Origin: Jaapia argillacea MUCL 33604
Lineage: Eukaryota > Basidiomycota > Agaricomycetes > Jaapiales > Jaapiaceae
Assembly: GCA_000697665.1 (NCBI GenBank)
Contig: KL197722.1
Location: 531,012 to 595,011 of the forward strand
Reading direction: 5' to 3'
Length of the DNA stretch: 64,000 nt
Position numbers and translations under genes: made by a program. The notes beneath the pieces were generated by a model. That model saw nothing but the letters and a program-made list of their open reading frames with translations. It did no database searches and was not told the DNA's origin. This document shows, piece after piece, positions 12,006-61,767 of the stretch. Positions within the stretch are counted from its first letter, which is position 1. Each line of letters opens with the position of its first letter.

Positions 12006-12197
12006 TATCTGTTATTCTGATGAGAACGACACATGGCATAGCGATATCAAGATACATCAACAACAGATTCGTGGAAGGGGAGAAACAAACACCAATCCGT
12101 GAAGGACGGAGCTAAAAAGAAAGAAAAAAAACAAGTAAATAGGTAAATAATGAATAGGGGAAAGGGAGGAGGGAAGTAATAATCATAGAAAATCGCC

Positions 12198-12705
12198 CTA
12201 GAGCTGAGGATATCGTCGAGATAACTCGGAGTGCACGTCACCAGCCAGTAGCTGAAAACGGGGTGCAGGAAGGGTGGACAGCTTCTGACGTGCTTGATTG
12301 CGCTTGGGATGGAAGTCGTCGCGAGGGGGCAAAAATGGAACTAAAATCGAGGAGTCAGATTGAGAGGACTAGATAAATCAATGGATACTGAGAAAGCAAC
12401 TAGTTCGAACCTTCATTCCCAACTATCCCATTCTTTCTCCGAACGAGCTCGTCGCAAACGTCCGTGGACAGCTCATGAAATTGCAGTGCAGTCAATTTCA
12501 GCAACTTCTCCCTCGCAGTGACTCGAGACCCTGATACCTCTGTGCACGGGAGTCAGACCTGTGTACCCATCCCATAGGACAGGTAGAACTCACCCGGAAC
12601 GAGATGACCACCCAAATACTGGCTGAACTCCAGATAATGCGTCTTGGCAGCTGTCCGATAAGGCTGCAGGTCGTGCCCTTCGGTTTCAGATAATCCCTTT
12701 ACCAT
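12198..12705 (-). CDS. Spa2-type SHD (GIT_SHD) protein, copy A (127 aa)
   Basis: The product has two Spa2 homology repeats. The first is SRVTAREKLLKLTALQFHEL followed by STDVCDELVRRKN; the second is NQARQKLSTLPAPRFQLL followed by HSELSRRYPQL. In Spa2/polarisome and GIT proteins this domain docks MAPK-kinases and polarity partners at growth sites. Exons 12705-12594, 12539-12411 and 12340-12198 give 128 codons. Full Spa2 proteins are many times longer, so this is a domain-only paralogue. It starts at MVKGLSETEGHD and contains YRTAAKTHYLEFSQYLGGHL, the conserved leader before the repeats. The start is set by exact exon-length agreement with copy B; upstream, this copy reads ATG-AAG-TAG where copy B stays open. 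Expression is unknown. Confidence 0.75.
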
Positions 12706-13304
12706 CTGACCGTCAAGTGGGGGGGCGGTATGAGTCTACTTGGAGGACACCGAATATGAGGATGATGGGAAACAACAAAGCAGGGAATACGCACGAGCAC
12801 GAGAAGAGCCGTCCAGCGACTACTTCATATCAAGAAGGGGTAGTGTAAATTTAGAGGTGCCGTTGTGCGCTGTTTGAAACGATAACCACCGACACTCACT
12901 TTCAGTAGGCAGCCGAAGTGGTAGTCTTGGTATTCGACATGTGTAACTGGCAGGCTTCCCCGCAGAGACTAAGGAGCTGTGTTCCGCACCGCCTTTCGAG
13001 CCTGGAGATAGGCCAATCGGCGGGTCGGTCACCGGAAGAAGATGAAGTGATTGACTACTCCTAGCCACCGTGGAACAGTTTCGTTATCTAAATAATATGT
13101 GGCGCTGAATGCGAAGTCAAACGGGTGAAACGTTGCTCGGGGAAGGCAAAGCTCTTATCTGTATGGACACGGCCAAGCTGTTATAAGAGGAGCGACCCTA
13201 CCGTCGATTACGACGTCTGACCTTGCTATGCTCGAGCGCTACGACTGGCTTCAAGTTTCTCTATTGACAACAGGACACGACGACAACACACCAGATGGCA
13301 GCCA

Positions 13305-13477
13305 CTCACTCCGAGTAAGAATCATCGACAACAGACTCCTGTACCGACTCAATAACCGTCCTCACCCGCTCGTACACTGCGAGACGACAGCCTGCCCAGG
13401 TGCTACTCTCAGCACATGAGGGGTGATGCCCTTGTAGAACGATCGGACACCCTCGGAGCCTCCTGACGCCACATCTC
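13305..13477 (-). pseudogene. 3' fragment of the SFC1 carrier left by tandem duplication
   Basis: The stretch matches the last exon of SFC1 at 14735-14900, including the region that encodes FYKGITPRVLRVAPGQA in the intact gene. It stops abruptly at about 13477, where unit B begins. An extra few bases near 13451-13461 and several substitutions show that it is no longer constrained. It marks the right end of duplicated unit A. Confidence 0.8.
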
Positions 13478-13480
13478 AAC

Positions 13481-14900
13481 ATCTGTTATTCTGATGAGAA
13501 CAACACATGGCATAGCGATATCAAAATGCACATCAGCAACAGGTTTGTGGAAGGGGAGCAATAAAAACGAATCCGTCAAGGACAGAGTTAAAACGGTCAA
13601 ACAAATAAGCAAGTCGGGGAGTGGGAGGAAGGTCATAATCAAGAAGATCGCCTAGAGCTGGGGGTATCGTCGACACAACTCGAACTGGACTTGATAAACC
13701 AAGGACTGAAAACGAGTTGCGGCAACGGTGGACAACTTCCGACGCGCTTGATTACGCTTGGGATGCAAGTCGTCGCGAGGAAGCAAGAATGGAACTAAAA
13801 TCGAGCAGTCAAATTGAGCGGACCAATATAAATCTCGGGATACTGAGAAAGCAACTAGCACAAACCTGCTTTCACTGTTTTATCATTCTTTCTCCGAATG
13901 ACCTCGTCGCAAACGTCCTCACACAACTCGTGAAATTGTGGTGCCGTCAATTTCAGCAACTTCTCCCTTGTAGTGACTCGAGAGCCTGGAGCCTCTGATC
14001 GCGCGAGTCAGGTCTGTACGCACCGTCCAACAAGATAGGTAGAACCCACCAGGAGCGATATGGTCACTCAAGTATTGTCCGAACTCCATAAAGTGTGTCA
14101 TTGCAGCCGTTCGATAAGGCTCCAGGCCGTGTTCTTGGGCGTCGGGGACCTCCTTCTCCATGGGGTGGTCAAGGGGGCGGTATGAGTCTGCTTCTTGAAC
14201 ACCGAATACTGGATGAGGAGGATGAGAGGTCGCGCAAAAGTAAGGCTGGGGATACGCACAAGCACCAAGAGACGAGCTGGCCAACGACCACTTCATATCG
14301 CGAAGGAGTGGTATAAATTTAGAGGTGCCGGGAGCGCTGTTTGAAACGATAAGCACCGACTGCTCATTTCAGTGGGCAGCGGTAGTGGTTGCCTTGGTAC
14401 TTGACATGTGTCGGGCTTCCCGGCGTGTCGGGGACCGAAGGAGGGTGAAGTGATTGTCTATTCCTACCGACGGTGGAACAGTTTCACAGAGTTTTGTGGT
14501 ACTGAATGAAAAGTCAAACGGGTGATATGCTGTTGCTCGCGGAAGGCAAAGCGCTGATCTATAGTGTGTGGACGCGGTTATAAGTAAGAGCAGCACCCTA
14601 CCAATTATTACGACGTCTGGCCTTCCTATGCTCGAACACGACCACTGGCTTCAAGTTTCTCTGTTGACAACAGGACACGACGACACCACACCGCGGCACC
14701 AGGGACGGTCGTAGATACCCCAGATGATAACGACTCACTCCGAATAAGAATCATCGACAACAGTCTCCTGTACCGACTCAATAACCTTCCTCACCCGCTC
14801 GTACACCGCAAAGACAACAGCCTGCCCAGGTGCTACTCTCAGCACACGAGGGGTGATACCCTTGTAGAACGATCGGACACCTTCCTGACGCCACATCTCC
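13481..14900. repeat. Tandem duplication, unit B
   Basis: This is the partner of 12006-13477. It carries SHD copy B and runs into the intact SFC1 3' end. Unit B lies next to the complete SFC1 gene, so it keeps the original junction, and unit A carries the cut-off carrier fragment. Confidence 0.82.
13652..14161 (-). CDS. Spa2-type SHD (GIT_SHD) protein, copy B (127 aa)
   Basis: The exons (14161-14050, 13994-13866, 13794-13652) have the same lengths as in copy A: 112, 129 and 143 bases. Repeat 1 reads SRVTTREKLLKLTAPQFHEL then CEDVCDEVIRRKN; repeat 2 reads NQARRKLSTVAATRFQSLV and ends CRRYPQL. The leader PYRTAAMTHFMEFGQYLSDH matches copy A. Compared with copy A, the second repeat has lost several conserved positions (QVQFELCRRY against DVHSELSRRY). 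The coding frame also stays open upstream to an ATG at 14296, so a longer N-terminus is possible in this copy. A role in polarised growth is inferred from the domain only. Confidence 0.75.
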
Positions 14901-21491: not shown

Positions 21492-24400
21492 ATGGCCCCG
21501 AGGAAATCAACTGGAAGGTCGTATCATGGGCAATCAGGCGTGTCAGTAGGCAGTGGGCATGATGAGGAGAGAAGGGCTGGTGTTCTTGGTTCGGATTTCG
21601 GAGGGGTTTTTCGCAGTCTTGATGTAGAGGAGTTGGAAGCGAAGCGTGCTTCACTGGTGACTGCAAGGCAAGCAGAATTGGAGAGCGTATTGGACAGACA
21701 TGATAGCCTTGTCAGTAACCCGCTGCTCATCTGTCCCGCTCGCTCACATTTTGCTTAGGTCCGAGAAGCGTTTCATATGGAGAAGTTCGTTACTCTCATT
21801 TCGTACAATCCGAAGGTAGGCTGCCCCTCGTTTGCGTCAGGATTATATCTGAAACGAGCGTAGGAAGCCAAAGAGGACCAGTCTCCAGTCTTCCGAGAAG
21901 TAGGTGCCTGACATCTACGGTTGGGCTTGCAATGCTGATTCGTGACTGCCACAGTACAAGGCCCAGTACGATCTCCTGGAAAAGGCCAATCAAAGCGCAG
22001 GCCCCTCGCGCAAGACACGTCGCGCACACACGGAGCGTTTAGGCTTTCTCAAAGGTCCCAGTGCCACACCTTCCTCGTCCTCCCTTATGAAGAAATCAAA
22101 ACACGCGAAGCCCCCCGTTGATCGACCTGCAGATCTTGAAATATGGGATATTCTCGCTCAAGCGAAGTCAAAAGGCAAGGCAACACCCAAATCTGTGAAT
22201 GGAACAGAGGTGGATGGAGGGAAGGGAGGCAAGAGAACAGCGGAAGGTTGGCTTGGTCAGGCAGCGAATGGTGTTTCTCGAACAGGATATCACGACGCAA
22301 TATCTTCATCCATCCACGTAGCGGCACGCCCCCCTCGCGAGACAGGGCTTGTAACTTCCGGAGCCGACGCATCGCACCCTCGCCCACGAAACCGCCGGAG
22401 GACGGAGCCAATTGAAGCTACTCCTTCATTACTCATGCCTCCCCCATCCGAGAGACCCACTCGCTCGAGCACTCGCATTATACCGATTCCACTATCCCCT
22501 TTGAGACCCGACCTATCGTTCGTTTCGAACACGAACCATTCTATTCCGAAGACGGGCTTCCACTCGCAGCCACAGCTCAAACCCGCTATCAGACGAGTAA
22601 AGCTAATCGTCCGTAGACCTCCGCCCTCTTTTTCAAGCCCTTTGCAGAGACCTCCCGTCCCTCGCCATGGGAATTCGCTTGATAAGTTCCTTTCATCTTA
22701 CAATATGCTGGATCAGGAGGACCTCGCTTCGGAGACCCTGGAAAGCATGGCCAAGGCCGACGCTACCATATGGTCTCGGTACGATGATCTCCGCGGGGAC
22801 GTCAAAACCATGGGATTTGATCCAATAGAGGCCTCTGCTCCGCGACCCGACACCGGTGGCCGAACCGATCCTTGGAGCGACATTGTTGCAACGATTATCG
22901 CTCGCTCCCGACTGCGGTACACAGACGGTCGTCAGATCGCGTCTTATGTCGCTGGAAAAGTTGCCAATTACTGGGAGGGTCAGGCTACTCGCGATGACAA
23001 GGCTAGGGCTCAAGAGGAGAAGCGTCTGAGGGCCTTGGCGAAGGCCACCATTAAGCACATTGCTAGTGAATGGAAGAGGGCAGTCTTTGTGAGTCAACTC
23101 ACAGGTTGGTGCTGCTGTGTTGACTCAAACCATCCTTTTTCCTCTAGCATATTCGTGAACAGCAGCGATTACAACAGGAGGCTGAGGATAAGCGGCGCGG
23201 AAGGGAGCATCTGGATGCCATACTCAACCAATCTGGTCAGATACTGGAAGCTCAACACGTCGAATTGTCGAGGGCCGAGGTATCTCGCTCACAAAGCCGC
23301 TCAAGCGCATCGCCATTCCCCGATAACGAGTCCGACTTTGAGGGTTCCGAGGCGGCGACTGAGCCCCTTGAAACTGGTATCGAGGAAGAGGAGGAAGATA
23401 CCGATGCCGAACCAGAGTATATCGACTATGAGATGTCGATAGGGGAGGGAGGTGACGGAGAGGAGTTCAGTACGAGTGCTTTGCTATCCTTTACCGGAGA
23501 GAATTTTGGGACCTCTGCCAGCTCTCCCTCCGAATCTAGGGCGCCGTCAGAAATCGACAACGAAACCTTCCGCCCTATGCTAGAGGACACTATGCAGTTC
23601 ACAACGTCACCGATGTCTTTCCAACCCACACGACTTGGTTCGACCCCTTCTGATTCCGTTTCAGGCTCGCTACGTTATCCCTCTAGCTCTGACGGCTTTG
23701 ATGACGAGACAATGTCACCTCTTTTTGACTACCTGGATACTGCATTGCACTCCCCAAAGCAGTCGCTTCCCATCCCCTTGCATGATCCGGAACCCGAATG
23801 CGGGAGCGTTCGCCCTTCCGATGGAGATCGATGTCACGCTTCCCATACTTCGTCACTTCTACAAAGCCATACTAATGGTGGCGCTGAGGTTGTTGATGGC
23901 GAAGACCTCCAAATCCCATTGCCCGTCGTCGAAAAACAATCGATGGAGTCCCTTGGCTGGACTAACCCCCAGGATGAGGCTATGAACATGTCGTCACCCC
24001 CGCATCACCACTTCGTCTCTCCAGCTCCCGACGAAACCGATCTCGCCCCTTCCCCGTCCCTGGCCGAGGAAGCCCAAGGGGATCAGGCCTTTATCAACAA
24101 AGCCGCTCCGGCCGCCTTTGAGGGTGTCCATGATGCTCGCCTCCAGGGTGAGGCTGATGTGGAAGAGGGGGAAGCTGATGCCGAGGTCGAAGAGGATGAT
24201 CGCATACCGGCATATCTTAAACCATTTGCTGTTGCTCCGGTTGATTGGGACTCACAGGACAAGATCAAACCACCCTTGCTCCTCCGCGGTAGTTTGCGCC
24301 CGTACCAACACTCTGGTCTGGAATGGTTAGCCAGTCTTCATGTGAACAACCTGAATGGGATTTTGGCTGATGAGATGGGGTTAGGGTGCGTCTCCACGAC

Positions 24401-26927
24401 TTCGTTTCGAAGGCAGTTTGCTGATGCTAAGCTCCAGCAAGACCATCCAGACGATTGCTTTGTTGGCACACTTGGCATGCGATCGCGGTATCTGGGGACC
24501 CCATCTGATCATCGTCCCTACCAGTGTTATCTTGAACTGGGAAATGGAGTTCAAGAAGTTCCTTCCCGGATTCAAAGTTCTTAGTTATCATGGAACTACC
24601 AAGCGACGTAAAGAACTCAGGCAAGGCTGGAACAACAAGTACCATTTCAATGTCTGTATCACGTCTTACACCCTCGCTAGCCGTGACGCGCATATCTTCA
24701 AGCGAAAGCCTTGGTATTACATGATACTGGATGAAGCCCATATGATCAAGAACTTCAAGTCCCAGCGGTGGAACATCCTCTTGATGTTTCGATCGTTTCG
24801 TCGATTGCTGCTCACTGGGACACCCTTGCAGAACAACCTAACAGAGTTGTGGGCTTTACTGCAATTTCTGATGTCGGGCACAAACTTTGCGAACGTGAAA
24901 GAGTTTGGAGAATGGTTTTCTAGTACGTTATCTTCGCTCCCACCCATTCGTTGAACTAAGTTCTCGACCAGATCCCCTCGAAAAGGCTATCGAGATGGGA
25001 TCCGTTTTGGATGACGAAACCCAGCAACGTGTATCCAAACTCCACACCGTTCTCAGACCCTATCTTCTTCGCCGTTTGAAGCGTGACGTGGAGAAGGAGT
25101 TGCCCAGCAAATACGAGCACCTTGTCCTTTGTCCTCTTTCTAAACGACAGCGCTTCCTCTACGACGAGTTTATGTCTCGACGGCAGACTCGGGATGATCT
25201 CCATTCTGGAGTCTACCAAAAGGTCGCCAACATCTTGATGCAACTTCGGAAGGTGTGCAATCACCCCGATCTTTTTGAGGTTCGGTCGATCGTGACATCC
25301 TTCGCGGTGCCTCGTTCAGTTGCTGCCGACTTTGAGATCAAAGATCTGCTTGTTCGTCGCCGAATGATGCAAGATGTCGACGAAGACTGTGTCGACCTTG
25401 ATTTCCTTGGTCTCCAGTTCATTAATCGTCAGAAAAAGTCCATCGTCGCTTCGATGGAGACTTGTCGCTTGGACGCTTCGTCCCGATTACCGTTCATTAC
25501 AGAGCTACCAGGCGAACCACCACCATACGATGCGCGGACCATCGATGGATTCAAAAGTTGGCGATCCTACCAATTGCGTGCAGCTACAATTGCGCGATGG
25601 TCACACTTTGCGTACCTCAACCGACTCCGCTGTGCTCAGTCGCCAATATACAGTCAGGAGCTCGTTTCGACCGTTGGCCAACTGTATAGTTCTCCGCTCT
25701 CCCCCACGGGACCAGATCACCAAGCCAAACATTTAGAAACCTCGAACTGCTTGTCTACTGCAGTATGTACATATGCGGCTCGCGCGCAGATAATGTCGGA
25801 CATCATCGACAGATTTGCTTTCGCCACACCCCCTGTGGTCGCACTGGACCTACCGCGCATTGCAATGGCTGGATGTGGTGACGTTACCAACTCTGTGGCT
25901 CTTAACGTTGAATTTGATGAAGTTCTTCACCGAGCCAGCGTCAAGCTACAGATAGCCTTTCCTGACCCCTCTTTGCTGCAATACGACTGCGGGAAGCTTC
26001 AACAATTGGACTTGCTTCTTAAGGAGAGGAAGGCGGGCGGGCATCGTATCCTTATCTTCACGCAGATGACAAAGATTTTGGACATTTTGGAGATCTTCCT
26101 CAGTTTCCACGGGTACTTGTACCTTCGACTGGATGGAGCCACCAAAATCGAAGACAGACAGTACATTACGGAAAGATTCAATGCCGATCCCAAGGTCTTC
26201 TGTTTCATATCATCCTCTCGGTCGGGAGGTGTTGGGATCAAGTATGTATTCCCCAAAAGTTGCCGACACACATTTTACTGAAGCCATCTACCACAGCCTC
26301 ACTGGCGCTGACACTGTCATATTCTACGACAGCGATTTCAATCCTCAAATGGATAGGCAATGTGAAGACAGGTTTGTTTCATCTCATCCCACTACTCAAC
26401 TTCACTTACCGATGACACCACTCCCCAGGGCTCATCGTATTGGTCAGATCCGCGACGTGCACATCTATCGATTCATCTCCCAGCATACGGTCGAAGAAGC
26501 TCTGCTACGCAAGGCCAACCAAAAACGTTCTCTGGATGACATCGTCATCCAGCAAGGGGAATTTGACTGGCGTTCGCTTTTTGGTGAAGATCAGCAAAGT
26601 GCGCTCACAAGGGCGATGGGGGAGTTTGAGGACCGAGAGGATGCTCATGCCGCTGCGGTTGCAGCGAGGGAAGAGATTGAGATGGTTGGTGCCGATGAGG
26701 TTGACTTTGGGGGTCCGGAAGGAGTGGAGGCAGTCAGTAGCATTGCGGTGCCTAGTCCTGCCGCAGAGCAAGAGGTGAATATTCACGGCGATGAAGTCGT
26801 GAATAACGAAATCGCTGCGCATGATGACTTAGAGGAGCACGACCAAGAGGATGGTGGGACGGCCGTTGACTATATGCTCTCATTCGTTCAATCCGATTGG
26901 GAGTTCTTCAAGGACTGGCGGTTATGA
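21492..26927 (+). CDS. SWR1: SWR1-type chromatin remodelling ATPase (about 1,670 aa)
   Basis: Swr1 is the motor of the SWR complex that exchanges H2A for H2A.Z in nucleosomes. Nine exons keep the frame: 21492-21710, 21759-21815, 21864-21899, 21955-23088, 23148-24385, 24438-24922, 24972-26241, 26297-26371 and 26429-26927. An HSA domain is visible around [19 protein letters not shown], followed by a long acidic stretch. The Snf2 ATPase has [49 protein letters not shown], then a long insertion, and [20 protein letters not shown] with [19 protein letters not shown]. Splicing at 24385/24438 completes the Walker lysine. The split between the ATPase lobes and the segment [20 protein letters not shown]-like ([18 protein letters not shown]) fit Swr1 more than Ino80. 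The C-terminus is acidic and ends EFFKDWRL. Confidence 0.93.
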
Positions 26928-36574: not shown

Positions 36575-38271
36575 TCATGCAGTAGTAGCGTTGTTGAAGA
36601 TCAGGATGTTGACAGTCTGAGCAGGTAACTCTGCCAGTACATCCTTGGTGCCGAGGGCAATCAAAGCCTTCTTCAACTGCAGGGGAGTCAAAGTCTGGGG
36701 ACCATCGGGGATGGGTGCGACGGCATCAACCAACTCGGGAGTGGGGAGGAAGGCGGCGACCCAGCTGGGGAGGGATGAGCGAGCGATGGCGTAGATTGAC
36801 GAGAATCCGGCAGATGAGAACTGGGTCTGGAGGGAGGCAGGAACCATGTCCTCCGAGATGAAGGGGCTGAAGGTGGTGGTACCGTAGATGGAAAGGAGGT
36901 AGGCGAGCATGCCAGCGGTGTGGGGGGAAGCCATAGAGGTACCGGACATGGTGGTTACGGCAGTCTTGCTACCAATATAAGTAGACAGAATGTTCAAACC
37001 TGATATCATAGGTGTGTCAGGGCAATGGAGTAGATATAGAAATTTGGAACGTACCAGGGGCAAAGATGTCGACGCAAGCACCGTGGTTGGAGAAGTAGGC
37101 CCTCTCATCACCAAGAGTGGATGCACCAACAGTGACGGCCTTCTCAGCAGCAGCGGGAGAGTATTGGCACGCATCACGGTTGTCATTACCTGTCAGGGTT
37201 TTCGTTAGCAAGCCTCAAAAGCACACTTGGCAGTACAAACTCACCAGCAGCGACGGCGAAGTGCATTCCCAAGTCGACAGCCTTGTTGACAGCATCATCC
37301 AAAGCACGAGACTTGCCACCACCAAGACTCATGTTTGCGACGGAACCCTTATGCTTGGTCTTCCCGGTCGCCTTGAACTCGGCACGAGCAGCGGCATCCT
37401 TCTTAGCAGCCTCCTGAGCAGCCCAAACAACTCCACCGACGACATCCGACATGGTACCACTACCATTCGAACCAAGCACCTTGACGGCAATGACGTTGGC
37501 ACCCTTGGCGACACCATACTTGCGAGAAGCAATGGTACCAGCACAGTGAGTTCCATGACCGTTGCCATCCTCATCGACATCGTTCTGAGGGATGGTCTTT
37601 CCCCAGAAAGCACGACCTTGGAATTCTTCGTGGTTGACGTTGATACCAGTATCGACAACGTAGACGTCGACACCCTCGCCACCGCTGGGGTCAAAGACAT
37701 ACTTCGTAAATGTGCCGAAAGTCAACTTGGCACGGTGACTGACTCGTGCGAGTCCCTATTTCAATGACACGTCAGCACGTGAAACCTCGCTGCTGCGGAT
37801 CGCGGAAAATATACGAACCCAAGGTGCGCTCTTCTGAGTCTCCATCTTCTCCCCGACTGGCCCAATGTCCATCGTCCGTACTACCTGATCCAGCTCGACG
37901 TACGCCACCTCCGGCATGCCCCTAATGGCCTCAACAGTCGCCTCTGAGAACTTCCCAGCATATCCCTTGATGTGCCCATCATAGACATGGCTCAACCCCG
38001 ACTCCCCACCAACAAGCAACGGGTCATTCGCATGCGCGCTCTGCAAGAAGTTCAAATGATTCTGCATCAACGCCGAAGGCAAATCGTGCTTCATCATCAC
38101 AATGTACGAATTGTTAATGGTCCCGTGAGGGTGGAACGACTGCATCAGGGGCGCAGGGACAAACGACGCGCGGTCGCGGGAAGTGTCATAGTGAGACGTT
38201 GATAGTGGTGAGGCATACCCTGTTGAGGCCAGGGATACAGCCAAGATGGTCAAGGAGAGGATGGAAGGCAT
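36575..38271 (-). CDS. Secreted subtilisin-like serine protease (proteinase K/cerevisin type)
   Basis: This is an S8 endopeptidase with a signal peptide (MPSILSLTILAVSLASTGYA) and an I9-type inhibitor propeptide (NNSYIVMMKHDLPSALMQNH to PEVAYVELDQVV). The mature enzyme begins near SAPWGLARVSHRAKL, joined across a GTTCGT...AATAG intron. The catalytic triad is visible: Asp in YVVDTGINVNHEEF, His in DGNGHGTHCAGTI and Ser in TMSGTSMASPHTAG. The oxyanion-hole Asn is in AVAAGNDNRDACQYSP, across another intron. An extension of about 100 residues after the catalytic Ser includes FLPTPELVDAVAPIPDGPQ. It is probably secreted or vacuolar. Confidence 0.92.
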
Positions 38272-38563
38272 GGTGGTGGGGAGATAGGACGAAGTTGAGT
38301 TCGCGCCGGGAGATGATAACGCGTGTCCGGTTTGGTCTTATTTGTCTCCTGTGGCGTGGCGGAACGGACCATCGCCTGAGGCTGACGGAAACGTGAAAGG
38401 GGGGACAGCCTGGGATGATCATCGTCATGGCATTGCCAAACCCCAACAACTCGCGTGCACTGAACGTTCTGGGGTAGAAGGGGACACGATGCGTTCACAG
38501 CAGAATTATCTATTACACATGCGATGAAAATGGGATACAGTGATCTATGTGCAGTCAGGGCAG

Positions 38564-41950: not shown

Positions 41951-41959
41951 CGCTGTGGT
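41951..41959. repeat. 9-bp target-site duplication, left copy
   Basis: CGCTGTGGT lies immediately before the left inverted repeat; the identical 9 bases follow the right repeat at 47840-47848. Confidence 0.92.
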
Positions 41960-42161
41960 CAGACTCCTTCCCACCCCCTCTTGCGAGTTCAGCGATTCGG
42001 AAAAGAGAAAGATATGATATGTTTTAAGAATAACATATGCCACAACCAAATACACGCAACGCAGAGATTAAAACCCAGCGCACGAATCTGAACTCTCCAG
42101 AGGGACTGGCAAATTATGCACTCTCCCACGCCACTCGGGCATTCGGGGAGCGCGTTTCTGG
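41960..42161 (+). repeat. Left terminal inverted repeat (202 bp)
   Basis: It is the reverse complement of 47638-47839 except at 42025 (T against C), 42060 (C against T) and 42079 (C against T). It contains the ATG of the helicase gene (42037) and must contain or adjoin its promoter. Confidence 0.95.
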
Positions 42162-44744
42162 ACGCGTTTCTGAACGCGTCGTACTCCTGGAAGTCTCTCT
42201 CGATTGTCTCCCTATGCAACGGATCGGGAGGGCCATTCCCACTCTCCAACAGATTAGGCAGGCTGCGCAAGGCCAGCTGAATCAAACTCCTTGTCTCTGG
42301 CAGTTACAGATTGGTGAAGCTCTGCTGAAAGCCGACAAGGACGTTGTCTGCATCACTGCTACTGGCGACGGGAAGACCTTAACATTTTGGTTACCACTTC
42401 TATTCAGTGAAGATGGTATTGTCTTGGTTGTCACCCCTCTCAATCAGCTCGGAAAGCAAACAGAAGCGCAGCTCGGCACTTCCGGTGTCTCTTGTATTGC
42501 AGTTGAATCGAAGACGGCCACCCCCGAGAAGTTCAAAGTGAGTCTGCAAATTTGTAGCCTCTCCTACGAGGTCTCAACTGATGCACTATTAGGCCATCCG
42601 GAGTCTTGAACACAGGGTGGTTGTTGCGAACCCGGAGTTACTCATGAAGGACGATGGGAGTTTCGAAGCCCTACTTCGTGACCCAAAATTCAATTCGAAG
42701 CTCCTCGCCGTAGTCATCGATGAGGCCCACTGTGTCTCTGAATGGGGTGGGTTTCGTGATGAGTATCGTTATATAGGCAGGCTCCGGCATCTACTACCAT
42801 CATCTGTACCCTTCTACGCGGCGTCGGCTACCATGCCACCCGAGATACTCGCGGATGTCAAAAAATCCCTGAACTTGCGAACCAGTAACACATTCCTCAT
42901 GCACCGATCAAATGATCGCCCGAATATCCATCTCGTCTCAAGGCCCTTCAAGTATGGGCAACACACATATTCCGATCTTGACTTCCTGGTGAAGGATTGG
43001 AAGCCCGGTGATGCATCCCCACCGAAGTTCTTGATATTCTTCGACTCCATCAAAGAGTCTGAAGATGCAGCTAACCATCTTCGGAGCCTCCTTCCCAAGG
43101 AATATCAAGATAAGATCAAATGGTTTCATGCTGTGATGACTCCAGAGTTCCGAGACATTGAGGTCGGCCGTTTTCGTGAAGCAGACTCCTGGGGTTACTG
43201 TGCCACTGACTCTTTTGGAATGGTGAGTCGCAATTGACTCTTTTTCGATGCAGAAATTGACCATTTACCGCAAGGGCATGGATCTATCCGACATATTGCT
43301 CATAATACAGTGGAAAGCAAGTACCAGTTATCTTAAGATCTGGCAGAGAATCGGACGTGCGGCTCGAGACCAATCTCTCGAAGGGACAGCAATCATATTC
43401 TCTGAGACTCAGTACTCCGATGAAAAACGTGCACAGAAAGAGGCAACACAACAGAAGCGGGCTGAGACCTTGAAGAGGAAAGCCGAGGTAGCGAGTAGTG
43501 GGGGTCAGGCAAAGAAAAGGAAAGGAAATAATTCATTATCCATAGTCGCAGGGAATGAAGGTGATCAGCGAGGGAGTACTGGGGGTGCGGAAACTGCAAA
43601 TGGACAAATCGAACCAACAGTCCGGATGGACGTTGAGGCACGCCGTGCAAGTTATGCTCCTTCCGTGGTGGCCAAGATACAGAAAGCTACCAAAGGGGGC
43701 GATCGCTTGCACCCTGTTCTCGATGATATGATCAATGCACGGGCGAGAGGTATCAACTGCATACGGCTTCCATTCACGCTGGCATTTGAAAACGATAAGA
43801 TTGGTACGTGATTAATCGCACGAACGTTATCCCTTCTGATCGTTCTGATCGTTCTATCGTTCTGATCTAGTCCCGATAAGCAACCTCTGTTGTTTGCATC
43901 TCATTGTCGATTGTCTCCCTTGTGCTACATCTGGCGGTTGCGAGCGTTGCAGGTTGAAGATATCCCGACTTTGCTGTGATACTTGCAGCCCCGAAGAATT
44001 TGCCCAGAAATTTCTCGTCAACAACCCTCCTGTCCCCCCCGTCCCACGTCGTTCAGGAATTGAAACAAGCTACATGCCATCTCAAAGCGAGCAGGATCTC
44101 AAGGCTGCATTGTTCGTCTGGCGCGAGGAGGCCGCAGAGGCTGAATTCGGTGCAGACGTTCTCTCCATGACCGGACCGTGTGTCTTCATGGCCGAGGAGA
44201 CTGTGCTACGCCTTGTCGACTGTGCTCATCACCTCAAGATTTGAGCACCATCTGATGTCGGCAAGGAAACCAAGTGGAAGCGAGCTCATAAATACGCCGA
44301 TGAGCTTGCGGCGTTGATCCAATCTCACTGCCCTCTCCCAGCTCCTACAACTTCACCCTCGACAGACACCTCATTACCTCTTGGTGATCGCACTGCAGTC
44401 ATCAACCAACCGGACGAGCCGTTGAACGTTTCCAAACCAGCGAAACCCTCTAAACCACGCCGTTGTGGTGCGTGTGGACAGCTCGGTCATATTAGTGTGT
44501 TTTCTGTTCATTTCAAAAACGTTGCCTGATGTTTTCAAGGATCCAATAAACTTTGTCCGAATTACGGTGGTGGCCAGTCAAGTGGCGACCCCGAGAACGT
44601 TCTCGTTCCCTCTGCACCACAAGTTCCCAGTGAGTTCGTTGATGTGCCGTCATCATACCTGACTCAAACCACATCAAGGACCCCTCCCTCGTCCATTGGT
44701 CCAGCACAATGCTGTCGCCTCGAGCTCAACATTATCGGCCGCTG
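42037..44744 (+). CDS. RecQ-like DEAH helicase of the mobile element; in-frame stop at 44242
   Basis: Exons 42037-42537, 42593-43222, 43275-43803 and from 43871 give 677 codons to a TGA at 44242-44244. Superfamily-2 motifs are present: LWQLQIGEALL (Q-like), TATGDGKTLTFWLPLL (I), VVIDEAHCVSEWG (II, RecQ-type DEAHC), AASATMPPEI (III), KFLIFFDSIKESED (IV) and QRIGRAARDQSLEG (VI). A basic linker (KRKAEVASSGGQAKKRKG) and a Cys-rich block (LPCATSGGCERCRLK) follow. After the TGA the same frame runs on as DVGKETKWKRAHKYADELAA and a zinc knuckle, CGACGQLGHI, completed over an intron (44495-44539) by SNKLCPNYGG, ending at 44744. The TGA lies inside a 51-base stretch (GTCGAC...GGCAAG) that could be spliced in phase, so the gene may still be whole. 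It probably acts in transposition or repair of the donor site, not as the host RecQ. Confidence 0.8.
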
Positions 44745-44929
44745 ACAACACAGGAGGAGAGAAACGGAGCCAGGGTCTTCTGCATTCACAAGGGCCTATT
44801 GATCCTTCATCTTTCTATCATGGTTTCCGGTATGTCCATTCACATTTGATCTCTGCCTCTTACTGTCGTTACTGATACACATCTGCTAGGGAATAAGCAG
44901 TCGATGTATCATATTGTAGCACCTCGTAT

Positions 44930-47683
44930 TTAATCCATCAAATCATCCCCGTCAACTTCGATGTCCTCCTCCCCTCCTCCTCCAATCACACCATCCAAAG
45001 CAATATCGTCAACCTGAGTGGCACCCTCGTTGAGTAAAGCAAGACCCTTACTCATCTGATTTGGGATGAGGTATGTCACCTTACGGCCCGGATTAAGGAC
45101 ACGGTGGATGTCATGATCGTGCATGTACACCCCTAGTGCATGCAGAGTCTTCGTAAGATCTGTGTCTGCATGTGCAATTGTCCGATTGGACAACAGAAAA
45201 TTATCTTGTATATTGTCGATGCAACTGCGGTATGTCTCCACTAGTGGCGATTCGAGTATGATGCGATGGACGGTTCGATTTGATACACTTCCACCATAGA
45301 CCACCTGTGCAGTCGTCGGTGAGTGACGAATCAAACACTTCGTTCTGGCTCGTACCTTCGTGTATAGGTTATTCCGCTCCACCAACCAATCCACGCCGCG
45401 AAATTTCCCCTCCTTGCCTGTTGGGTTGCAAAGCCAGTTCAGTCGGATTGCCCGCCTAGGTCTGGTCCATCAGTATCCCACTCTCCTTTCTGCGTTCACT
45501 TACCTCAGCCTTTCAGGATAAACAAAGTGGACATCGTGGAGAAAGCGAGTCATCTGCGCTGCATATTTTGATTTGGATGACCCTTTGAAAATGAATATCC
45601 AAGGTATGCATGCCCACTCCACTGCGCCAATATCTCCCTGATTCATCGCATCTGCCATCATCTCATAAAGGAGGAAATCGCGATTCATCAACAATGAATT
45701 CTCGAACACTTGGTCGCGTTCCTCCACTCTCTGGCGCCGCATCTTCTCGAAATCACGTCCTGCGACAAAGTTACCGGCCATATCCTCTGAAAGTTTTACG
45801 ACATCCTCCCACAGTGGCTTGGTATCCGCCCACTGTTCTCTTGTATCCAGACGAAATCGCTTGTGGATCTCTGTCTCCCACCCATCAAGACGTAGAGCAA
45901 TTCCAACGTGTCCAATCACTTCATGGGTACGTCGAAATTTGAATTTTGTGGCGATACTGTGTGCTTGGCGATAACGAGAGATTGATATGTAGTGCATCAA
46001 GGTCGCTGTGTCTTCCTGCCCCCTTTTCGGCTCCAGATATGTTCGCCACACGGCATCAGCACACGCCATCTTCAGATGAAACAGCCCAGGGATGAAGACC
46101 ATGAATCGCATCTGGCGGAATGGGGTATGTTCAATTGACCTCGAAGCTAGAAGACTCTGTATCCGCTCCATTGTCGAGAGATCTCCGTGGAAGAGGATAA
46201 TGTGCTCCGCAACATCCACAACGTTGGGGACTCCTTCTGCTCCCACCCCTCCCTGCCGTAGTAAGTCCTCAACAGCCTCTGCATTTCCCTGAACCGTTGA
46301 TTGATTGATATTCATAGCGCGGGCGGGAACCTGCGGTGTCTTCACCACTGGTATTTGATACATTGGTTTATATGGGCAGCCTAGTTGAGGGATGAATTGC
46401 CGAAAGTACTCGGGCCCATGGTGGCATAGGTCGTAACGCATCTTCCAGGCGTTGAACCGCTGTTGGCAGTAGAGCCCAGAGGGGTGGGGGTCTTCGGGAT
46501 GAATGGTGAGTAGTTGATCCCATGAACACACCGGCCGCTGACTTTCTCGCTGTGGATTATTTGGACTTGATCTCCAGAGTGTGTCGGCGCACCTCAAATC
46601 CTCTGTGGTGACACCATGCTTGACCTCAAGTAGCGTTCCGGACGTTAGGTGCTTTAATGTGGGCACTGCCTTCTCGACCGTCGGCGTATCAACTTTGAGA
46701 TCAACATCAAAGTTGTCATATGCATATGATGCGAGCATCGTTGACCCCAACGCTCGCAAGCCACGTCTCGACTCTTCGGCAAGTGATCGTATGGCATTAT
46801 TTACCGCCGTTGTTGATATTGACAACCCTGCATGCGCCAGGACCTCCATTACTCTCTCCGGTGTATTGCTACAACGACCAAAGATCCCCATGACGGCTGG
46901 CAGTGGGTTACAACGCTGGTTTGTACTCTGCGTCATAATTGTGACGCAGGTCACCTTCTTCTACGTTGTATGTCAGTTACCAGTATAGATGTTAAGATTG
47001 TATCTCACTATTGACAGAAGCTTCTCAGCCTCAGACTCAACCTGATCCCCACTCCCATCACCTGTTCCATGTCTCAAATTTGCCACCATCACCCCAGCCT
47101 TGCGACGCCTCACCGCTACATGATCGGCAGACAGCAAGGCTCCCAACAAGTCCCAGAGGTGTGGAGCCAGATCACGCATCAAGTTTGCCATTACAGGAAT
47201 CTGGAACGCATCCATCTTCTCTGGTGTTGCGTGGTTTGCATTGAAATGCCACCCCGTTTGTTTGTTCACAAGCTTCATAACCTCTTGGGTACATTCTCGT
47301 GTTGTAACTCTCCGTGCCCATTCTAACGAGATTTCTTTTGTTACTGTATGGGTACTAAGTGCTTCGAGGATTTCTTCGACATGGCTAATGAGATCTTGAA
47401 CCACATCCTCGTTGGTAGGTTGTCTGCTTCCCAAGAGGTGCAGGATCAGTGCGGCGGGTGATAGTCCATTGTCGGACAGACTGGTGAGGGCGGCGTTGAG
47501 TCGTAAAGGTTCCATTGGGAGACAAGGGTCGTGTTGGTCAGGATTGGCAAAGTACTTCAAAGGCAAGGTGCTACGACTAAGTACGATCTGAGGCGTGTCT
47601 GCAACATGTCCTGAATACCATCTGGCATCGATGAGCACCAGAAACGCGCTCCCCGAATGCCCGAGTGGCGTGGGAGAGTGCAT
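44930..47683 (-). CDS. DUF6589 protein (885 aa), candidate transposase
   Basis: Exons 47683-47009, 46960-45504 and 45455-44930 give 886 codons. The start MHSPTPLGHSGSAFLVL lies inside the right inverted repeat. The N-terminal half is helical. The core carries DUF6589 hallmarks: GSTMLASYAYDNFDVDLK, EHIILFHGDLSTMERIQSLL, FHLKMACADAVWRTYL and, after the last intron, LNWLCNPTGKEGKFRGVDW with DWLVERNNLYTKV. Acidic residues in YDNFD (about residue 307) and HGDLS (about 485), with a later Glu, could form an RNase H-like D-D-E site; this is inference only. The C-terminus is acidic (GGGGEEDIEVDGDDLMD). The gene ends 186 bases from the helicase gene's last stop, tail to tail. Confidence 0.85.
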
Positions 47684-47839
47684 AATTTGCCAGTCCCTCT
47701 GGAGAGTTCAGATTCGTGCACTGGGTTTTAATCTCTGCATTGCGTGTATTTGGTTGTGGCATATGTTATTCTTGAAACATATCATATCTTTCTCTTTTCC
47801 GAATCGCTGAACTCGCAAGAGGGGGTGGGAAGGAGTCTG
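47638..47839 (-). repeat. Right terminal inverted repeat (202 bp)
   Basis: It is the inverted copy of 41960-42161 with three differences. It contains the ATG of the DUF6589 gene (47683) and, in another frame, a mirror of the helicase start (MPQPNTRNAEIKTQC). Confidence 0.95.
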
Positions 47840-47848
47840 CGCTGTGGT
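47840..47848. repeat. 9-bp target-site duplication, right copy
   Basis: CGCTGTGGT is identical to 41951-41959. Confidence 0.92.
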
Positions 47849-59468: not shown

Positions 59469-60215
59469 TCACGGTGGTGGAGATAAGATATTCATACCTC
59501 GCGCGGACCACCCAACCGCTCTAACTGGCGAGCCGTCGCACCCACTTATCCGAAGTGGTAATAGACTGACAACCGGGTCCTCAATCGTCAACAGCGCCTC
59601 CAGTCCGTTGAGATTTTCTACAATGACACCTCCCTGGTCCAAGACGACGTGATGGACGTCAAAACACTGCTCCCCTTCCTCAACGCCGTCCACTTGACCA
59701 TGACAACCGCCGCTCGCACCACGAAGTCTCGACGCAGGCATTTCGTCGGGACTTAGTGTGTCGACGCCAATAACCCTAACCCCTCGCGAAATTATGTTCT
59801 TGGCCGCTTCTTCTTCCAGCCAGGGATGGTCGATGTATATCTCTTGCCTCCAATATTTCGACCAACCCGTGCATAACAGCACGACCACGCCTTCTTTCAT
59901 CTTCGACTCGTACCTCTTCAAGTCCCCCTCCCACGTAATCCTCTCCCGAGGCTTCTTATACCGAACGTCGATAACCAGAGCCGGGCCAATGAGGGTGGGT
60001 AATGGTATTTGGTCTACCGAAAGTGCATTTTGGTGCGAGAGAAAGTGGTTGGGAGCGTCGATGTGAGTTCCGGTGTGGGACCCCAAGGAGAGTGTGTGCA
60101 ATGAGATTCCAATGTCGAGGAGGGCAGGAAGTGGACAACACGTGAATGGGGGGTGACCAGGACAGACGGTCATGGTCGGCTCAAGCGAGTGGGTCAAGTC
60201 GATGATTGTGGACAT
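59469..60215 (-). CDS. Cyclase-family metal hydrolase (kynurenine-formamidase-like), copy 1
   Basis: This is a PF04199-type metal-dependent hydrolase. The signature is SLGSHTGTHIDAPNHFL (H-x-G-T-H-x-D-x-P-x-H-F), whose His and Asp residues bind the metal. The start IIDLTHSLEPTMTVCPGHPP, the strand VVVLLCTGWSKYW and VRVIGVDTLSPDEMP are family blocks. It is 249 codons in one open frame. The tail (ARGMNILSPPP) may instead be spliced at GTATGA. It shares about half its positions with copy 2 downstream. Members open small cyclic amides or formyl-kynurenine; the substrate is unknown here. Confidence 0.85.
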   Translation of the reverse strand: MSTIIDLTHSLEPTMTVCPGHPPFTCCPLPALLDIGISLHTLSLGSHTGTHIDAPNHFLSHQNALSVDQIPLPTLIGPALVIDVRYKKPRERITWEGDLKRYESKMKEGVVVLLCTGWSKYWRQEIYIDHPWLEEEAAKNIISRGVRVIGVDTLSPDEMPASRLRGASGGCHGQVDGVEEGEQCFDVHHVVLDQGGVIVENLNGLEALLTIEDPVVSLLPLRISGCDGSPVRAVGWSARGMNILSPPP

Positions 60216-60819
60216 GTTTCCAGGGAAACGGTCGGCTACTGCTGGAGATAGGTGAACGAAAGGATCAAGGAGAGATAAATTCGTTTATCTAGGCATCTAA
60301 ATTTGCATTCCTTGAATCCCCGTCGTGTTTCATAATCCTGCGGTTTCATGCTTGTCTATATGGGATTCTGGAGAGGCGCAACAGGTTAAAAAACCTTCAG
60401 GAGGTCGGTCCGAACGGAGAGAGCGAGTCCCGTTACAGCGTCGCCGTTCACGTCATTAAGCGTAGAGCTTCTGGCTAGATAAGGCAGGTGTGGTATTCGT
60501 CAATGATTCTCCGGAGTTTCGCCCACGACGATACGAAGATTTGAAGTGATATGAAGAGAGATTTCGGGCAAAAGGTGGTGAAAGATTGTCGATGGGATGT
60601 AAGTGGCGTTGAAGGAATGATACGAGAGAGACTGGCCTAGAATTTGGGTTCAATCGTGGTATCGTAAGGGAAAAAGAACACGAAGATTTTTTCAGGGAGT
60701 ATACTCACTATGCGTTGGAGAGTAAAGCTCCGTGGTGGAGGGAGTTGCGTTGTAGGTCCAAAGGAAGGTCGGAACGCCTTGAAGGAGCCTGAGAGCCGAG
60801 GAAGCATTAAGGCGGGATT
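60216..60819. other. Intergenic between the two cyclase genes
   Basis: The stretch holds the promoter of copy 1. The small minus-strand frame at 60456-60653 has no family signal. Nothing else was seen. Confidence 0.45.
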
Positions 60820-61536
60820 TTAGCCTTCATGCCAAGCATAAGCTCTGACTGGCGATCCATCACTCCCACCCAACTTCAGTGGAACCATGCTGACCATGAG
60901 TTTTCTCGACTCCCAACCGCTCACCAAAATTTCCCCGATATTGGTCAGATTTTCCACGATGACCCCATCCGCACCCAAGACGACTTCGTGGATCCCGAAA
61001 TCGTCCACATGTCCTCCTTCTCCTCCAGTTGAGTCGGACAATCTGGTTTCGTCGGGACTCAGCGTATCTACGCCAATGACTTTCACCCCACGAGCGATGA
61101 TTTCTTCGGCGACGCGGCGGTCAAAGTACGGATGGTCGTAGTATTTGGGCGATCCCCAGTGTTTCGACCAGCCAGTATACAGCAACACAATAACGCCTTC
61201 GCCCATCTGGTCCCCATATTCCTCAACTTCCTCCCAATGAATTCTCTCCCTTTCATCCCTCTCTCCCTTCTTTGCGAGATCTACAACGAGACACCTTCCG
61301 ATGAACATATCCAGCGGCATCTGTTCAATGGTTCTGCCTCCTTCAAACCAGTGAAAAGGACTGTCCGCGTGAGTTCCAGTGTGTGATCCCATGGATATGG
61401 CGTGGACATTGAAACCATGGATAGGGATGGTCGCGAAGGGAACAGAGGTAAATGGTGGGTCACCAGGATAGATCTGAACTCGATCGTTCCTCAACTCGTG
61501 CGAGAGGTCGATAAAAGTTCGCGAAGACGGCGACAT
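60820..61536 (-). CDS. Cyclase-family metal hydrolase (kynurenine-formamidase-like), copy 2
   Basis: The start FIDLSHELRNDRVQIYPGDP precedes the metal-binding signature SMGSHTGTHADSPFHWF. VIVLLYTGWSKHWGSP, VKVIGVDTLSPDETRL and LGGSDGSPVRAYAWHEG match copy 1, so the pair arose by tandem duplication. The frame is one exon of 238 residues. Within the metal motif the last position is W-F after H, a mild variation. Both genes lie on the minus strand with separate upstream regions and are probably transcribed separately. Confidence 0.85.
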   Translation of the reverse strand: MSPSSRTFIDLSHELRNDRVQIYPGDPPFTSVPFATIPIHGFNVHAISMGSHTGTHADSPFHWFEGGRTIEQMPLDMFIGRCLVVDLAKKGERDERERIHWEEVEEYGDQMGEGVIVLLYTGWSKHWGSPKYYDHPYFDRRVAEEIIARGVKVIGVDTLSPDETRLSDSTGGEGGHVDDFGIHEVVLGADGVIVENLTNIGEILVSGWESRKLMVSMVPLKLGGSDGSPVRAYAWHEG

Positions 61537-61767
61537 CTTTTAAAGTTGATTGCTTTGAGATTCGGTTACAAGAGTCAAACATAAGTGGTGGAGGGTGCAC
61601 ATCAGTCGCACGTGTTGTCGCAAGCCACATGACGCCTTGTTGAGATGCTCAGTTGAATATATTTTTCTGCCGTTCATTTGGCAAAGCACACTGTCCCGAG
61701 TCTGACTTGAGTGCCAGACACAGCTGAAAATGGAGCCCGAATCCTCCATGCTGTCTCAGAAACCAAC

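Follow-up and report, generated by a model that had tools for sequence, protein, structure and literature searches.

Helicase-encoding DNA transposons of fungi have been described in the Academ superfamily, where the AcademH lineage (Kojima 2020, as cited in PMC10045372 and PMC10799480) is reported to produce target duplications of 9 or 10 bp and AcademX duplications of 3 or 4 bp. This difference in length is seemingly tied to the helicase or nuclease that the elements encode (PMC10045372). AcademH elements have been found at low copy number in Basidiomycota, Ascomycota and Mucoromycota (PMC10799480), and in the mushroom Marasmius oreades putative non-autonomous MULE and Academ insertions are reported to be widespread (PMC8290104). 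A RecQ helicase is likewise the mark of KolobokH, a fungal lineage of Kolobok (PMC9587614); a KolobokH of Cladobotryum is described as combining two RecQ-like helicase genes with a single uncharacterised gene (PMC10989895).

The element analysed here, from Jaapia argillacea, lies within a 64-kb stretch of DNA that was examined as a whole (the window; Table 1). It is bounded by inverted arms of 202 nt each that differ at three positions, the sole inverted pair found in the window with a floor of 60 nt and a seed of 14 nt. A perfect 9-bp direct duplication, CGCTGTGGT, flanks it on both sides; of the 58,102 start positions in the window, 2 have identical 9-mers at the same spacing, one of the two being the element's own duplication. 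The ends read CAG..CTG (CA..TG), and GC content is 50.1% against 50.3% for the window. The element is a DNA transposon that retains both marks of its insertion, terminal repeats and target duplication, and comparison of the arms and flanks bears out the sequence-only reading on the transposon structure, the length of the repeats, their three mismatches and the 9-bp duplication. Since the duplication is perfect and the repeats are near-identical, the insertion looks recent. Two of the arm mismatches, at arm positions 101 and 120 (window 42060 and 42079), set a CG of the left arm against a TG of the right, a pattern suggestive of cytosine methylation followed by decay; the third is T versus C. 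No second copy was found elsewhere in the window, where the strongest protein match has E=0.66 and the strongest repeat match E=5.2. The insertion site gives no evidence of a disrupted exon: the longest frame over the roughly 1.5 kb of joined flanks spans 66 residues, a result that leaves room for an interrupted spliced gene or an untranslated region. Also in the window, at 12197-14884, is a diverged direct duplication whose copies lie about 1.40-1.47 kb apart, with 80-95% identity over seven matched blocks.

Table 1. Features of the element, in window coordinates
Feature	Position	Strand	Basis
Left target-site duplication, CGCTGTGGT	41951..41959	.	Sequence
Left terminal inverted repeat, 202 bp, starts CAGACTCC	41960..42161	+	Sequence comparison of arms
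RecQ-type SF2 helicase gene, predicted start and splice sites, ends at in-frame TGA	42037..44244	+	Splice model, Pfam, PDB matches, motifs
Helicase exons (predicted)	42037-42537, 42593-43222, 43275-43803, 43871-44244	+	Splice model
ATGDGKT	42358..42378	+	Motif position in helicase model
DEAHC	42719..42733	+	Motif position in helicase model
QRIGRA	43344..43361	+	Motif position in helicase model
Coding-like tail after TGA, possible CxxC...H zinc knuckle (by eye), provisional last intron and 3' end	44245..44745	+	Reading frame
DUF6589 gene, predicted splice sites, product of 887 aa and probably a DDE transposase	44930..47683	-	Splice model, PF20231 match E=4.4e-100
DUF6589 gene exons (predicted)	47683-47009, 46960-45504, 45461-44930	-	Splice model
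Candidate catalytic Glu E739, in DWLVERNN	45377..45379	-	8.3-bit drop
H520, conserved His between the second Asp and the Glu	46076..46078	-	8.3-bit drop
Candidate second catalytic Asp D485, in HGDLST	46181..46183	-	6.7-bit drop on D485A
Candidate first catalytic Asp D307, upstream of Pfam-defined domain	46715..46717	-	Position and order alone
Right terminal inverted repeat, 202 bp	47638..47839	-	Sequence comparison of arms
Right target-site duplication, CGCTGTGGT	47840..47848	.	Sequence

The interior holds the two genes that had been described there, arranged tail to tail, with DEAD and Helicase_C domains encoded on the plus strand and DUF6589 on the minus strand. In Pfam the plus-strand model matches DEAD at E=1.5e-21 and Helicase_C at E=1.2e-10, and its top PDB sequence match is the WRN helicase (E=1.8e-29). 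The PDB list at E up to 1e-10 comprises 36 distinct sequences, 33 of which carry the name WRN, Bloom, RecQ, Q1 or Q5; the other three are called simply "ATP-dependent DNA helicase". By these matches the product is a RecQ-type helicase, much as the sequence-only reading had it. The model contains ATGDGKT, DEAHC and QRIGRA, which we take to be helicase motifs I (Walker A), II and VI, respectively. A Cys-rich stretch 3' of the helicase core resembles the RecQ zinc region by eye, and the Pfam scan of ORFs returned no match for it. Downstream of the core and the Cys-rich region, and ahead of a coding-like C-terminal tail, the frame meets an in-frame TGA (44242-44244), which may be either a true stop or part of an unrecognised intron. 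The description of the element as intact-looking is consequently only partly upheld: the DUF6589 model is open through all three of its exons with no internal stop, and the helicase frame carries the TGA. In both genes the modelled ATG falls inside a terminal repeat, the left one for the helicase and the right one for DUF6589. Elsewhere in the window, ORFs at 23148-26281 match SNF2 and Helicase_C and probably represent a single chromatin-type ATPase gene.

The minus-strand gene is the less familiar partner. Its product matches PF20231 (DUF6589), a family to which Pfam assigns no function, over residues 387-808 and profile positions 21-410 of 410, as the earlier domain assignment had proposed. 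The sole other Pfam match listed for the spliced model at E up to 10 is MrcB_N at a chance-level E=0.19, and an exon-by-exon scan of the gene gave sub-threshold matches, with E between 0.07 and 0.23, to three unrelated families. Candidates for a D..D..E triad were picked by eye as D307 (YDNFDV), D485 (HGDLST) and E739 (DWLVERNN), with 177 residues lying between D307 and D485 and 253 between D485 and E739. Conservation was gauged with the Pfam profile: each fragment carrying a single substitution was scored relative to the same fragment left unchanged. Residues 381-815 contain 50 acidic residues, of which 19 were substituted singly by Ala and two as a pair, the remaining 29 being left out. The largest drops among the 19 came from E739 (8.3 bits), D735 (6.9 bits) and D485 (6.7 bits); the other 16 lay between a loss of 2.2 bits and a gain of 0.5 bits, and the pair E610/D611 gave a 2.9-bit drop. 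E490, which had been guessed beforehand to be conserved, fell by just 0.4 bits. Substituting H520, 35 residues past D485, by Ala cost 8.3 bits. Further non-acidic positions, likewise changed to Ala, showed drops of 4.7 (G484), 4.6 (N742 and F519), 4.5 (T488), 3.2 (R491 and N719), 3.1 (H576), 2.6 (P516), 2.5 (L518) and 1.8 bits (G517), and after GD the profile favours QL over the LS found here (+5.1 bits). The conserved His sits in the context PGLFH, with G at H-3, and the profile scores the sequence lower when D or C is put at H-3 or H-2.

An Asp followed soon by a His, with a Glu beyond a long stretch, is an arrangement expected of DDE transposases that carry an inserted domain, as in the hAT, MuDR and P families. 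D485, the His 35 residues on and the distant E739 have this layout. Conservation alone is no proof of catalysis, because the non-acidic Y691 (9.5 bits when changed to Ala) exceeds every candidate catalytic residue and D735 ranks alongside them. AlphaFold run without an alignment gave mean pLDDT values of 32.8 (for an input with an intron stretch read through) and 34.3, which are unusable for judging whether an RNase H fold is present. Taken with the profile scores, the layout makes DUF6589 a probable component of a transposase catalytic domain. The view that neither gene is a transposase is probably wrong, in light of the conserved D..H..E of DUF6589 and the candidate first D upstream of it. 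Could the DUF6589 protein be an accessory factor, with the transposase supplied by another copy of the element? The low-confidence AlphaFold models leave such a role conceivable, but the acidic pattern of DUF6589 is conserved and Pfam finds no other transposase domain in the eight scanned ORFs of the element or in its two spliced models, and the chance that the protein is accessory is close to negligible.

To which group of transposons does the element belong? It encodes a helicase, recognised by its DEAD, Helicase_C and WRN matches, and its 9-bp duplication falls inside the 9-10 bp stated for AcademH (PMC10045372). The short introns of its gene models suggest a eukaryote and, with the occurrence of DUF6589 in basidiomycetes given in the sequence-only reading, agree with a fungal host, AcademH hosts being animals or fungi. 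Because helicase and 9-bp duplication together match the published AcademH combination, the element is likely to be an AcademH-type DNA transposon that is nearly complete; we infer Academ membership, which transposase homology defines, from the helicase and the length of the duplication. It would then probably add a new member to a lineage already described. The element had been read in the first place as a possible undescribed superfamily, and this no longer leads, a helicase with a 9- or 10-bp duplication having already been reported for AcademH. That same published combination in fungi (PMC10045372, PMC10799480) weighs against a distinct, non-Academ DDE superfamily in which a DUF6589 transposase with 9-bp duplications acquired its RecQ helicase independently. 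Such an origin is nonetheless in keeping with the gain of helicases by more than one superfamily, as described for the Kolobok lineages (PMC9587614), and with a DUF6589 profile that does not favour C or D at either H-3 or H-2. The literature searched likewise yielded no paper found to name DUF6589, and the papers returned for "PF20231" were unrelated, as judged from their titles and the opening of their abstracts. A separate superfamily seems doubtful on balance. The same doubt extends to its fuller form, in which DUF6589 proteins would stand as a separate DDE superfamily, marked by an atypical D..xxxH..DxxxE core and by a RecQ-type helicase partner that helps to set the 9-bp stagger.

The preferred AcademH placement also has to be weighed against two other superfamilies. 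The RecQ helicase and the fungal host agree with KolobokH as described (PMC9587614, PMC10989895). However, Kolobok is reported to duplicate TTAA and to have ends of the form 5'-RR/YY-3' (PMC9587614), whereas the element duplicates the 9 bp of CGCTGTGGT and ends in CA..TG; Kolobok is also described as having C/DxxH, unlike the element, in which G stands at -3 of the conserved His and the profile disfavours C or D. Contradicted on duplication, ends and motif alike, assignment to KolobokH is rejected as extremely improbable. A Mutator-like element with a RecQ gene captured from its host is very unlikely as well, even though the 9-bp duplication lies within the 4-10 bp given for MuDR (PMC10045372) and long terminal inverted repeats suit Mutator-like elements (PMC3310237). 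The element differs from MuDR and MULE elements in carrying a helicase, in the absence of C/DxxH from the DUF6589 sequence and in having no MULE match listed in Pfam at E up to 10. Pfam includes a KDZ model too, and no match to the KDZ transposase domain is listed at E up to 10. HMMER filters remove most matches above about E 0.1, and both negatives exclude clear matches only. Within that scope, the suggestion that the element is a Mutator or KDZ relative that recruited a helicase is weakened on both counts, for Mutator also by the profile.

How would an AcademH-like element with these two proteins move? We infer the course that follows, and with it catalysis by DUF6589, a role for the helicase and any current activity of the element. 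The DUF6589 protein, acting as a DDE transposase, would bind the two 202-bp ends, cut them, and join them to the target strands at positions 9 bp apart, a stagger that repair would convert into the duplication. The RecQ-type helicase, as the second protein of the element, probably unwinds the ends, strand-transfer intermediates or gapped joints, and its step may be set during transposition or during repair. Each repeat could double as an element end and as the promoter region of the adjacent gene. If this is true, DUF6589 could be renamed in Pfam as part of a transposase catalytic domain, and proteins that bear it could be flagged as transposon-derived rather than as host genes. An element with both ends, its duplication and an open transposase frame would also be a good place to start asking why a DNA transposon carries a helicase, a question to which the published connection of duplication length with the accessory enzyme has given rise (PMC10045372).

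Searches for relatives of the DUF6589 protein outside the window gave no confirmed match. In viral contigs the main exon returned no pattern match, and two further queries returned 19 and 36 pattern matches, none of them confirmed; in genome contigs all 19 pattern matches likewise went unconfirmed, and tblastn against phages and plasmids gave nothing at E 0.01. Among PDB sequences, one search found no match and another found four, the lowest at E=0.23. With a helicase exon as query, viral contigs gave six pattern matches and one confirmed locus, a 1176-aa ORF with RecQ-like motifs near an integrase-like ORF (both by eye), which was set aside as unrelated. The window around the element also holds ORFs at 36575-38337 that match subtilase and peptidase inhibitor I9, probably a single subtilisin-like protease gene, and, at 59469-61539, two adjacent minus-strand ORFs that match Pfam Cyclase (PF04199) and are likely a tandem gene pair.
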